64,000 nt of DNA. Source: Alteromonas abrolhosensis. GTDB taxonomy: Bacteria; Pseudomonadota; Gammaproteobacteria; Enterobacterales; Alteromonadaceae. The first letter of the stretch is position 1, and every line of letters starts with the position of its first letter. The position numbers and the translations under genes are program-made. Under the pieces are notes generated by a model. The model saw nothing but the letters and a program-made list of their open reading frames with translations, searched no databases and was not told where the DNA came from. Positions 30,396-50,177 of the stretch are shown one piece after another. The stretch lies in contig NZ_MEJH01000009.1 of NCBI RefSeq assembly GCF_001953635.1, positions 1-64,000 on the forward strand. Direction: 5' to 3'.

Positions 30396-30660
30396 ATACC
30401 AATCCGCATAGATAATCACCCACTCAGCGAGAGTTAAAATGTTCGTAATCGCGGCGTGTTACCGTAGGTATAGTGGTTCTACATCAAGGTGACACAACAA
30501 AGAGTACGGACATTTTAAACTCGCCCTTCGGGAAGGTCTGGCAAGCTTCCTAGCTTCATTCTGGGAATTTGAAAGGGAACAGCCATTCCTGCGTTCCCAC
30601 GCTTCGCTAGGAAACTTGCCAGCGCCTTCTGAGTGGGTAATTATCTATGCGGATTGGTAT
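30396..30660. mobile_element. MITE-like element with 32-bp terminal inverted repeats and nested hairpins
   Basis: The ends, ATACCAATCCGCATAGATAA onward (30396-30427) and the complement at 30629-30660, match at 31 of 32 positions. Inside are further inverted pairs: 30427-30447 with 30505-30523 (one gap and a few mismatches), and 30538-30554 with 30606-30622 (16 of 17). TGGGAA pairs with TTCCCA at 30562 and 30594. TA dinucleotides stand at both ends (30397-30398 and 30658-30659), as expected for an IS630/Tc1-type target. No protein is encoded. The right end reaches into the thioesterase gene and supplies its stop codon. It may be a miniature transposon or a mobile structured RNA cassette. Confidence 0.8.
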
Positions 30661-31064
30661 AAATCCAGCTGCATATGCCGTTCATCCTCGGGAACGTAAG
30701 CAGGCACATTGACTGGGTTACCCTCGCAGTCCACCGCCATAAAAGTTATAAAACAGCGATTTGCGACCGACGTAGTATTTTCCGTAGCGTCGCCCGATTT
30801 AACCACAACATAGATATGCATACTTGAAGCACCAGTGTGTACCAAGGATGCGGTTATTTCTACGAGTTGACCTACCTTTATTGGCTTTATAAAGCGAATG
30901 CCGTTCGCTGAAACTGTAACGCAATAACATTTCGACCACTGTGCGGCACAAGCATAAGCGGCTTGGTCAATCCATTTCATTACAATTCCCCCGTGTACAT
31001 TGCCACCAAAGTTCACATCAGTGGGCTCTGCTAAAAATCGGAAAGTGGTGGTTGGATGTGCCAT
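30645..31064 (-). CDS. acyl-CoA thioesterase (hotdog fold, YciA-like)
   Basis: 139 residues. Hydrolyses acyl-CoA to free acid and CoA. The hotdog motif NFGGNVHGGIVMKWIDQAAY near residues 18-37 includes the catalytic-type Asn/Gly helix start, and GIRFIKPIKVGQLVEI follows. The last codons (Tyr-Gln-Ser-Ala-TAG) are formed by the terminal repeat of the inverted-repeat element, so the native C-terminus has been replaced by a few residues. The functional core is complete, so the enzyme is probably active. Confidence 0.88.
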   Translation of the reverse strand: MAHPTTTFRFLAEPTDVNFGGNVHGGIVMKWIDQAAYACAAQWSKCYCVTVSANGIRFIKPIKVGQLVEITASLVHTGASSMHIYVVVKSGDATENTTSVANRCFITFMAVDCEGNPVNVPAYVPEDERHMQLDLYQSA

Positions 31065-31196: not shown

Positions 31197-31273
31197 TGGC
31201 GCGTGTGGAAGGATTCGAACCTCCGACCGCCTGGTTCGTAGCCAGGTACTCTATCCAGCTGAGCTACACACGC
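31197..31273 (-). tRNA. tRNA-Arg (anticodon ACG), copy 2
   Basis: 77 nt with encoded CCA. Acceptor GCGTGTG pairs with CACACGC, discriminator G. D-arm AGCTCAGCTGGATAGAGT, anticodon stem CCTGG with loop CTACGAA (ACG, read as inosine at the first position), variable loop, then T-arm GGAGGTTCGAATCCTCC. Identical to the copy at 31327. Confidence 0.97.
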
Positions 31274-31326
31274 GTAAACTTGTGTACTTTTGAATATTAC
31301 CTCAAAAGGTGACGCTTTAAAATAAG

Positions 31327-31403
31327 TGGCGCGTGTGGAAGGATTCGAACCTCCGACCGCCTGGTTCGTAGCCAGGTACTCTATCCAGCTGAGCTACACA
31401 CGC
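31327..31403 (-). tRNA. tRNA-Arg (anticodon ACG), copy 1
   Basis: Identical in all 77 positions to the copy at 31197, including encoded CCA and loop CTACGAA. The spacer of 53 bases between copies is unrelated to the gene, so the pair arose by tandem duplication or is kept identical by gene conversion. Confidence 0.97.
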
Positions 31404-31438
31404 GCAAAACTTGTTGTTGGCCGTCACTGCCAACGAAT

Positions 31439-31532
<94 letters not shown>

Positions 31533-47382: not shown

Positions 47383-49404
47383 CTAAATTTTAAACTGTCC
47401 CACCAGCTCTTTTAAGTCACCAGAAACCGCGCTTAGCTGGGTAGCCTCTACCGCCAATTCCTCTGCATGCTGACTGGTTTTATCGCTTAGACTTGTAATC
47501 GCCACAAGCGACTTATTAATGTCTTGTGCAACTTCTGTTTGCTGCTCGGTAGCTAGAGCAATGTGGGTACTTTGCTCATGAACCAGCCCTATAGATTGGG
47601 TAATGTTCACAAGGGTCTCGACCACTTTTTCTGTTTTATCCACGCCAGATTGAGAACGAGTTTGCCCTTCCTGCATAACGCTGTTGGTTTGCTCGGACAT
47701 TGCTTGCAGGCGCTCCACCATTTTACGTATATCAGTCGTCGATTCTTGTGTACGACTTGCTAATGAACGCACTTCATCAGCAACCACGGCAAAGCCACGG
47801 CCCTGCTCTCCGGCCCTCGCCGCTTCAATGGCAGCGTTTAACGCAAGTAAATTAGTTTGTTCAGCGATACTGTTAATTACGTCAACCACAGCGCCAATGC
47901 TATCAGACTCTTTACTTAGTCCGCCTACCACTTCAACGCCCTGGCTTATTTCGTCGGCCAGTGCACGAATCTCCCTCATGGCGTCTTGCACTTGCTCGCT
48001 GCCGGCTTGTACCAATTCGTCGGCTTTCGTAGCAGCATCACTGGATTGCGCAGCATTTTTAGAAATCTCAACAACAGTAGCTGCCATTTGGGTAACCGCT
48101 GTAGACACATTGTCTACTTGGCTGCGTTCTTGGTTGATTTCCTTACTCGTAGCATGACTCACATCGCGAAGGTGATCTGCCGCATCAGACACAGCCTTGG
48201 TACTGGTGGCGGTATCTTGCAACAGCGCCCGCAATTTATCGGTAAACGTATTAAACTCTATGGCGAGAGCGCCAATTTCATCATTACTTTTAACTTCCAA
48301 ACGCTTAGTAAGGTCACCGTCGCCATGCGCTATTTCAGCCATTGCATGACGCATTTCAACCAATGGCTGAGTGACTTTGGCACTTGCAAAATAGGTAATC
48401 AGGGCAATCAGTCCAATGATCACAACAGCGACGATTATCGCCGTGGTTATAGCAGTATTTATCGGGCTATCAATGATGCTGGCGGGAATAAGAATACCCA
48501 ATGACCAGTTCATCTGTGGGTTAGTTAACTTAGCGTGCTCGAATACGGCAACATAATCTTCGCCATTCCAAGTAACATGTTCAATGCCAGACTCGTTAGC
48601 CGCTATGCTTCCTGCTAATTTCCCAAAGCCTTCGGTATTGTCAAATACGTTATTAAAGTTACGAATAGAGGAGCTAAGCGGCAATTCCTTACTCTGCTTT
48701 GGAAAATAAACAATGTTTTGATTTTCATCGAGTAAAAACGCTGTTCCTTGCTTTTCATAACGAATAGCGTCTATTACTTTGCCTACCGTACTAATAAGGA
48801 TATCGACACCGCCGACACCTAACAGTGCACCGTCTCTGTACACAGGTGTTTGAACAACCGCCGACACGCTTCCGTCCTGAGAATCAACTGCAGGAGGCGT
48901 TACATATAGCTTGCCTTGCTCAACGGCAGTAGTAAACCATGGGCGCTTTGTGGCGAAATAACCTGCATTAGGGTTGCCAGCATCAGGACCTGAAGTATCA
49001 ACCCCTACGCGACCTTCTTCGTAAAAGTACTCTCCTGTTTTTGCTGAGCCAAAGAAGGCAGATTTAATGATTGGATCTTGACTGCTAATGTTCTCGAAAG
49101 TGGCATAAATGTCTTTTGCCTCTGGCAATTGACTTTCAGGTGCCCCACGAGAATTATGGCGAGCGAAAAAATCTTGTAGAAAAGGACTGCTTAGGAATGC
49201 TCTTGCCACGCCACCATAGGTAGCGAAGAAGCCTTCAACATCATTTGCTTCTCGAGCGACTAACGACTTAACCTCTTTTTCCACGCGACTACGTGTATTG
49301 TCCGCAACCGTGTTAACTAAGAAGAAGGCCGTGATGAGTAGCATGAAAGCTATGCTACCACCAACGATAAGCATAAACTTTTTTTGGAGTGATATGGATT
49401 TCAT
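47383..49404 (-). CDS. methyl-accepting chemotaxis protein with dCache sensor domain
   Basis: 673 residues. Membrane helix 1 (about 10-32), periplasmic double-Cache domain (about 35-310, with [20 protein letters not shown] and [19 protein letters not shown]), helix 2 (about 315-340), HAMP and the cytoplasmic signalling hairpin with [20 protein letters not shown]. dCache domains often bind amino acids or organic acids. No pentapeptide tether at the C-terminus. It would signal through the polar Che system at 56-63 kb. An inverted-repeat element begins only 58 bases upstream of its start. Confidence 0.93.
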
Positions 49405-49892
49405 TTGTACTTCTCATTGTTTACTAAGCGCCGCAATGTGTGAAAAGTGTGTTCCAACACTAGGGCCTGTTGACCTTTGTTGTACATTTTTGCAGCGGTC
49501 TTTGTGCCATCTAGACAAGGCGGATGTTTGACGGTTTAGTGGTTCTAAGTCGAAAACATTCAACGCAGTATAGATGGCACAAAGGCGCTGCCCGAAGGGG
49601 TCGTTATGGAAGCCTTTTACTCTTTGTCACAGCCCTTTAACTTAGCCCACTAGGCTTGCAGGACTGTTTCGCGATTAAAAGGCTTCAATTTAGACCAAAA
49701 TTCGTACATCAAAGGTCAACAGGCCCTGATAATTCGCACACATTACAGGTTTAGTTTTATTAGTATAAAAGTGCAAGTAGACTGAGTACGCTTGCACTTC
49801 TAATACTTTGAGATATACAGAGAAATTTTACAACCTCTGGAAGTCAATTCTACGAAAGTTTAAATACAGAGTGAATTGAACACTTAAAAGAG
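49405..49892. other. intergenic region carrying the second inverted-repeat element
   Basis: Of about 490 bases, 266 are taken by the element at 49462-49727. The remaining 57 bases on the chemoreceptor side and 165 bases on the ppnP side are AT-rich and hold no recognised motif or gene. Confidence 0.5.
49462..49727. mobile_element. MITE-like element with 24-bp terminal inverted repeats and nested hairpins
   Basis: The ends AGGGCCTGTTGACCTTTG... (49462-49485) and the complement at 49704-49727 match at 23 of 24 positions. Two further perfect inverted pairs lie inside: CTTTGTGCCATCTA (49500-49513) with 49571-49584, and GAAGCCTTTTA (49609-49619) with 49676-49686. No protein is encoded. Size (266 bp) and architecture parallel the element at 30396, but the sequence is different. 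It lies in the promoter region of the chemoreceptor gene. Confidence 0.75.
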
Positions 49893-50177
49893 CTAGCTAT
49901 AAAAGCAAAGATAAGCCGTAGGCGTAAATACTTTTACGTCGAAAGAAGCATCGGCGGGCACATTAAAGCTAGTGCCTGTAGCAAAAGACTGCCACTCATC
50001 ACTATCCGGCAGCTTAACAACTAACTCACCTTCCACAACCTTCATTAGTTCTTTTTGTGACGTTGAAAATGTGTATTCACCTACAGCCATTACGCCAGAT
50101 GTGCAGGGGCCATTTGCAGATTCAAACCCAATAGAACTCACTTTGTTGTCGAAATAATGGTTTACTTTAAAGCTCAT
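49893..50177 (-). CDS. ppnP: pyrimidine/purine nucleoside phosphorylase PpnP
   Basis: 94 residues of the DUF1255/YaiE cupin-like family: [15 protein letters not shown] at the start, [20 protein letters not shown] and [17 protein letters not shown]. coli PpnP phosphorolyses many nucleosides. Single small gene, 34 bases downstream of the DUF938 methyltransferase and on the same strand. Confidence 0.9.

Follow-up and report, generated by a model that had tools for sequence, protein, structure and literature searches.

A mobile repeat family of Proteobacteria with lineage-specific ends and a hairpin pair apparently conserved at the RNA level

The window, that is, the whole 64,000-nucleotide stretch of Alteromonas abrolhosensis DNA under study, was found to contain two short elements (elements 1 and 2, Table 1) that have the same architecture and different ends. 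Such an element is probably non-autonomous, moved in trans by IS5-type transposases, and carries an RNA-selected pair of hairpins that is alike when read from either strand. The pairings and the loop motif of the family are conserved while much of the other sequence varies.

The 265-nt sequence at positions 30396-30660 was folded, and the + strand gave a minimum free energy of -135.5 kcal/mol, compared with a mean of -69.9 for shuffled sequences (z -13.5; 0 of 200 shuffles as good). In the predicted structure the 32-bp ends are paired and enclose two long internal hairpins (A and B) together with a small CC-UUC-GG hairpin. The preliminary description of a 265-bp sequence with 32-bp terminal inverted repeats, nested internal stems and a multi-branched fold of the full strand was therefore accurate in its outline. 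Judged from 58 copies and four empty sites, element 1 itself runs TACC...GGTA from 30397 to 30659 and is 263 bp long, the figure of 265 bp being a small overcount. It encodes no protein, as had been stated: there is no open reading frame of at least 60 aa inside it, and the only one touching it is the 3' end of a gene that we take to be acyl-CoA thioesterase-like. This gene was clipped by the insertion of element 1; it encodes 139 aa here versus 158 aa in genome G036, and its stop codon and last codons now lie inside the terminal arm. Three minus-strand tRNA genes, two of which score identically, are located nearby (31200-31532 of the window).

Table 1. Positions of the two elements, their parts and the flanking features in the window
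Feature	Position	Strand	Comment
Element 1	30397..30659	+	263 bp, excluding duplicated target bases; first described as 265 bp
Left copy of duplicated target, now CAA	30394..30396	.	Empty sites of relatives: CTAA, CTAA, CTAG, CTAA
Right copy of duplicated target, TAA	30660..30662	.	From empty sites and copies
Left terminal arm	30396..30426	+	Partner is 30630-30660
Right terminal arm	30630..30660	+	Partner is 30396-30426
Hairpin A, 'sense' unit	30427..30524	+	From fold and alignments
Hairpin A internal loop	about 30450-30456 with 30495-30503	+	CGCGGCG / CAACAAAGA at the place of the family's CAAGGC / AACNCAG
Conserved mini-hairpin between hairpins A and B, CC-UUC-GG	30525..30531	+	From fold and covariation alignment
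Hairpin B, the hairpin A unit in reverse-complement orientation, sense on minus strand	30532..30629	+	
Presumed acyl-CoA thioesterase-like gene	30645..31064	-	C-terminus cut by element 1 insertion
Element 2	49463..49726	-	264 bp; ends GGGCCTGTTGACC...GGTCAACAGGCCC; architecture of element 1

Element 1 is mobile and multicopy, as had been proposed. Its own genome contains three further full copies (95–98% identity) and many partial ones, and a BLAST search matched 33 of 98 genomes (its own included) in two of 31 genera, the second genus being represented by a single match (E 9.7e-4). The same sequence matched one plasmid record, A. macleodii pBGP9 (95.8% identity), and gave no match among phages. 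A search of ten genomes (its own included) with the flanking sequences located both flanks together in four others (G036, G041, G001 and G008), and the element was absent from all four. These empty sites read CTAATTC, CTAATTC, CTAGCTC and CTAACTC versus CAA-element-TAA here, with a single TAA in three and TAG in one. Among 58 full copies with distinct flanks in the fetched loci, a few of which represent one insertion in sister species, the target duplication was perfect in 32 (TAA/TAA in 19 and TTA/TTA in 13). The flanks of the other 26 differ, and element 1, with an imperfect CAA/TAA, belongs to these. In other genera, perfect TAA or TTA was counted by eye on both sides of 12 of 23 elements. 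From the 3-bp duplication it follows that the element is TACC...GGTA with a TWA target, and not with the TA target of IS630. The IS630/Tc1-type movement originally read from the TA at both ends is thereby ruled out, and the only end class that could be linked to an insertion sequence is of the IS5 family. Of the features of a MITE, the following are present: terminal inverted repeats, flanking target duplication, a length below ~600 bp, no transposase, multiple copies and empty orthologous sites; the mode of movement is MITE-like.

Derivatives of 64–88 bp, in which the arms are kept and the core is mostly or wholly lost, were observed in G041 and G001 (L111, L113-L117 and L120) and in the genome of element 1 (L075 and L076, in C9 and C25). 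Several of these have intact TAA or TTA duplications, and they are probably internal deletions at the hairpin bases. Two variants of 291 bp (L109 and L110 in G044) contain extra sequence and, in their folds, an extra small hairpin beside the core.

The conservation of the fold was followed through increasingly distant sequences. Five copies from a subfamily that is only 66–68% identical share one structure with element 1. When 13 sequences representing three subfamilies were aligned, 36 of 102 pairs had changes on both sides, versus 5–10 in slid controls, in which the pairing partners were moved by 1–3 columns. Four of five measures in this test exceeded all 500 shuffles, the exception being further pair types, at 69 versus a shuffled mean of 72.1. 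RNAalifold, run without a given structure, returned 34 double-change pairs among 95. In 61 elements, taken as one strand each, standard pairs occupied 90.8% of pair cells (33.2–43.7% when slid), and 1788 double-change cells (330–484 slid) were distributed over 97 of 102 pairs (68–79 slid); note that this alignment was fitted to the model, which favours these figures, and that all covariation counts are of sequences and not of tree-corrected events. The stems thus covary above the slid controls in both alignments, and this upholds the earlier suggestion of selection on the internal stems beyond the needs of a deletion derivative. Neither of the two outcomes named beforehand as refuting, lack of a second copy and lack of covariation, was obtained.

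The consensus of hairpin A is CAAGGC - n - GNAGG - nnUAGUGGUUCUAnn - UCAA - n - AACNCAG, and that of hairpin B is its reverse complement. A transcript of either strand would therefore fold alike, with a 'sense' unit first. In our view a two-unit element is a single module present twice, the copies being inverted relative to each other. Shorter elements of 162–178 bp, mostly with one unit, were seen at 18 places fetched, one of which was cut by the boundaries chosen. Across 48 non-redundant units of hairpin A, identity was 0.69 at unpaired versus 0.58 at paired positions, and the loop core, 12 positions picked by the analyst, had a mean identity of 0.86. The Alteromonas copies of element 1 are atypical in this loop motif, having UCGCGGCG instead of UCAAGGCG. 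The CAAGGC / AACNCAG internal loop and the GNAGG...UAGUGGUUCUA...UCAA tip offer a concrete motif for a search for a binding partner.

The 13 aligned sequences were used to build a covariance model, R1, which matches both strands of nearly every element because B is A in reverse complement. Elements were detected across the family Alteromonadaceae, with 164 of 295 genomes and 43 of 52 genera positive, and across the class, with 54 of 369 genomes (three from the same family) and 40 of 271 genera positive; the numbers of elements per genome are lower bounds, as the best six candidates at most (family) or five at most (class) were scored in each. The shared architecture of roughly 265 bp comprises paired ends, hairpin A, the mini-hairpin and hairpin B. 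The match was 258–281 bp long at 111 of 139 places in two alignments of fetched loci, a few places being counted twice with slightly different ends. When 23 elements from other genera were folded singly, the same or nearly the same shape was recognised by eye. One of them, L192, is very like the Alteromonas copies, which could reflect recent transfer or contamination.

A check that is independent of pairing was provided by scanning GTDB contigs with the loop and tip bases alone. At least 120 stretches were found; 80 were listed, and R1 matched 66 of the 68 that were passed on. At one locus (L360) the R1 match and the loop pattern lie at different places, and a few other matches are cut by locus ends. 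The loci come from Novosphingobium, Sphingorhabdus, Ruegeria and Sulfitobacter, which we take to be Alphaproteobacteria, and from Microbulbifer, Endozoicomonas, Vibrio and Pseudoalteromonas, which we take to be Gammaproteobacteria. In the whole viral collection the loop pattern occurred in one contig, and this sole viral locus had no R1 match; together with the result for phages in the BLAST search, the family therefore looks chromosomal and plasmid-borne rather than viral. Another multicopy family (L476-L479 in G571) has part of the hairpin unit, with outer sequences that differ and are not aligned by the model. At L352 (G443:C76) a 5.9-kb stretch of mirror-image open reading frames has an element at each end, and this may be an assembly artefact.

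Element 2 matched R1 with E 2.6e-43 on the - strand and 7.7e-38 on the + strand, and its fold has a minimum free energy of -120.8 (z -11.0). It is intergenic, between minus-strand genes at 49893-50177 and 47383-49404. It was not among the matches listed when its genome was searched by BLAST with element 1. As a BLAST query, element 2 retrieved full-length relatives of 65–70% identity on Pseudoalteromonas and Vibrio replicons.

Several classes of ends can be distinguished, which vary by lineage, and the arms stay complementary. In the family these include TACCA, GGGCCTGTTGACC, GTGCTCTTTCC, ATAGCTAAATC, ATACTCAA and others; in the class GTGTACTGCTTCAC, GTACTCCGTCA, ACTAAGCCGAAC and GGGAAACTCTGCACG; and in Alphaproteobacteria GGGTCAGGACC. 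The targets of IS5-family members are TNA or CTAG, and we assume several further classes of ends to be IS5-like. The ends of the GGGCCTGTTGACC class, that of element 2, correspond to those of an ISSpu10-like insertion sequence of the IS5 family, which is annotated beside the match in Shewanella xiamenensis. TGTTGA-type ends were present on both sides of 16 of 27 measured ISSpu10-like loci. Relatives of the ISSpu10-like transposase were found in 65 of 295 family genomes, and that search detected none in the genome of elements 1 and 2. At L236 (G277:C17) an ISSpu10-like insertion sequence directly adjoins a 264-bp element with like ends. Element 2 thus resembles the ISSpu10-like insertion sequence in having ends of the CTAGGGCCTGTTGAYCTTTG type, and the pair at L236 have one CTAG target in common. 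Unlike the elements, however, 16 of 17 IS5-type insertion sequence loci had no R1 match, the remaining match being an element beside the insertion sequence and outside it, and element 1 differs from the ISSpu10-like type in its ends and its TWA target.

A full-length transposon with the ends of element 1 was sought, as had been proposed, and no TACCA-ended transposase was found in its own genome, related genomes, plasmids or phages. A masked end pattern applied to 59 congeneric genomes revealed no parent, 30 of 32 loci being without an end pair of insertion sequence length, and end-pattern searches of the own and related genomes gave no TACCA-ended autonomous partner among the matches listed. 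Two loci with TACCA ends 1–2.3 kb apart were rejected: L129 contains unrelated genes, and L108 (G041:C1:4033488-4034483) contains, between two inward-facing terminal arms, not a transposase but a gene that we take to be MipA/OmpV-like. This is possibly a captured gene; the same site in the genome of element 1 holds half an element (L072), and the flanking target bases of L108 are mismatched. The PF13586 profile gave matches in 0 of 4 genomes, PF13359, a Harbinger-type domain, was above cut-off in one of 58 congeneric genomes, and the PF13359-type loci and distant IS5 loci had no TACCA ends.

Searching plasmids and phages with the terminal arm likewise identified no insertion sequence with TACCA ends. 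The weak matches were set aside: one covered 22 bases within a gene of the IS110 family (E 0.7), and the others, at E 3, were to four terminase genes of Helicobacter phages. A 97-bp match in L052-L055, considered as a parent, was likewise discarded, being one stretch common to four genomes. End probes of four other end classes had no match in plasmids. The GGGTCAGGACC end probe matched 62 plasmid records, and a model element was present in two of three regions opened; these three regions contained no IS5 gene, and an IS6 gene was nearby in one.

Wobble pairs can tell the two strands apart, since an A.C mismatch on one strand is a G.U on the other. With both strands counted, the G.U:A.C counts were 304:32 in hairpin A and 91:254 in hairpin B, and 115:114 in the terminal arms, where the balance is forced by construction. 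In 48 units of less than 75% identity, counted at cells with Watson-Crick neighbours on both sides and with one conserved G.U excluded, the ratio was 37:7 (binomial p 5e-6), and the rows from the best strand agreed with those from the other strand. A second alignment of 42 units from other loci, treated by the same rules, gave 32:6 (p 2e-5); both p values are guides only, because the cells of related sequences are not independent. Because the sign differs between the two halves of a single strand, a strand-wide mutation bias is excluded as the cause. It could be that the structure acts in DNA, as a cruciform or a single-stranded hairpin recognised by a transposase or host protein, and the strong inverted symmetry, the long stable stems and the R1 matches on both strands would agree with this. 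A cruciform, however, treats the strands alike and should leave G.T equal to A.C, whereas the bias is strong in A, reversed in B and persists once redundant units and the conserved G.U are left out, so that a DNA-level explanation appears unlikely. A variant in which one unit on one strand alone is used as a DNA hairpin at each end is possible. What these sequence comparisons best support would be selection on the sense unit as single-stranded RNA, each direction having its own working hairpin.

An ordinary MITE, by which we mean an internal-deletion derivative of an insertion sequence with incidental stems and with copies alike because they are young, would have the inverted ends, target duplication, lack of an open reading frame, multiple copies and mostly intergenic position that were observed. 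Yet the core is shared by elements with differing ends that BLAST from element 1 does not connect, the IS5-type loci are almost devoid of R1 matches, and the class-wide covariation largely refutes an incidental fold; we consider this very unlikely. An interior derived from an insertion sequence was not found for the end class of element 2, and the TACCA class yielded no parent. Where the preliminary description left a choice between a MITE and a mobile RNA cassette, the cassette was the better guess and the plain MITE failed as far as it was testable. The stems might also have arisen with no selection, by template switching in replication that rewrites one arm from the other; such quasi-palindrome correction is known to perfect inverted repeats, and many terminal arms are near perfect. 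This process would nevertheless erase the internal loops, which are better conserved than the paired positions, and cannot yield opposite G.U/A.C biases in two halves of one strand, and it is extremely unlikely.

By counts that are not tree-corrected, the sense unit has the sequence marks expected of a functional structured RNA, namely covariation above controls and an acceptance of wobble pairs on its sense strand. When 4227 Rfam families were searched at curated cut-offs, none matched the elements tested; the matches at gathering cut-offs were tRNA and SRP RNA genes elsewhere than the elements, and a lax search around the window element returned a chance-level match alone (E 1.2).

Among bacterial palindromic MITEs, NEMIS is presumably to be grouped with Correia. 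ERIC, Correia and QMITE are, in the part of the source available, small, mostly intergenic, multicopy, bounded by terminal inverted repeats and without a transposase; palindromic MITE transcripts fold into stable stems, some of which are cut by RNase III, and the RNase sites of such MITEs as ERIC and Correia influence host mRNAs (PMC10969869). The present elements resemble them in all of the former features. The same portion of that source describes ERIC, Correia and QMITE as families of one or few lineages (PMC10969869), whereas the present fold and internal loop span two classes, the unit is on both strands and the ends vary by lineage. By analogy with ERIC and Correia, an effect on host mRNAs through RNase sites is possible, but it would not on its own account for the conservation of the loop motif in two classes. 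The Tourist / PIF-Harbinger MITEs of plants are non-autonomous, with a 3-bp TWA target duplication and short terminal inverted repeats, as is element 1; unlike the present elements they are eukaryotic, and we know of no conserved RNA core in them. HEARO and IStrons are structured RNAs that travel with IS605/IS200-type elements, and the present elements are similar in that a structured RNA travels with transposon sequence, and different in that those tested match no Rfam family at curated cut-offs. No description of the family was found in the papers searched, a set that excludes subscription journals, most preprints and ISfinder, so that single members may have been mentioned earlier. We know of no earlier RNA family that is packed strand-symmetrically and whose ends are exchangeable.

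The genes beside the elements were compared in a set of 104, of which 22 with short flanks were skipped. The neighbours of 77 classified elements were co-directional in 42 cases, convergent in 19 and divergent in 16, with three more elements inside an open reading frame and two unclassified; these neighbours were called from open reading frames alone, which is crude, most so in GC-rich loci, and 35 of the 77 overlap a called end. There is no orientation preference, and a cis-regulatory role is therefore not supported.

Two short inverted ends flank the structured core of the hairpin unit and its reverse complement, and the element inserts with a 3-bp TWA duplication. The likeliest interpretation of these data is that IS5-family transposases move it in trans. 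The ends of various IS5-type elements would have been acquired in different lineages, and the core kept. The element might be transcribed by read-through, and a host protein or RNA might bind the unit at its internal loop and tip; such binding could make insertions tolerable or useful. The sense unit may thus have a role at the transcript level, via a putative partner, that serves the persistence of the element itself, for example by making insertions in transcribed DNA tolerable. We are evenly divided on the broader proposal that this is an undescribed kind of mobile element, spanning two or more classes of Proteobacteria, in which an RNA unit, selfish or mutualist and carried in both orientations so that either strand would give the working RNA, would swap ends among IS5-type transposases and would itself, rather than the ends, be the heritable entity.

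If this is right, intergenic repeats that resemble inert transposon debris in many proteobacteria would be one old, RNA-selected mobile family, absent from Rfam 15 and invisible to a sequence search that starts from one member. Why small palindromic repeats have such good folds could then be put to the test. The fold would be under selection, apparently at the RNA level and for both directions of transcription, whichever transposase moves the element.
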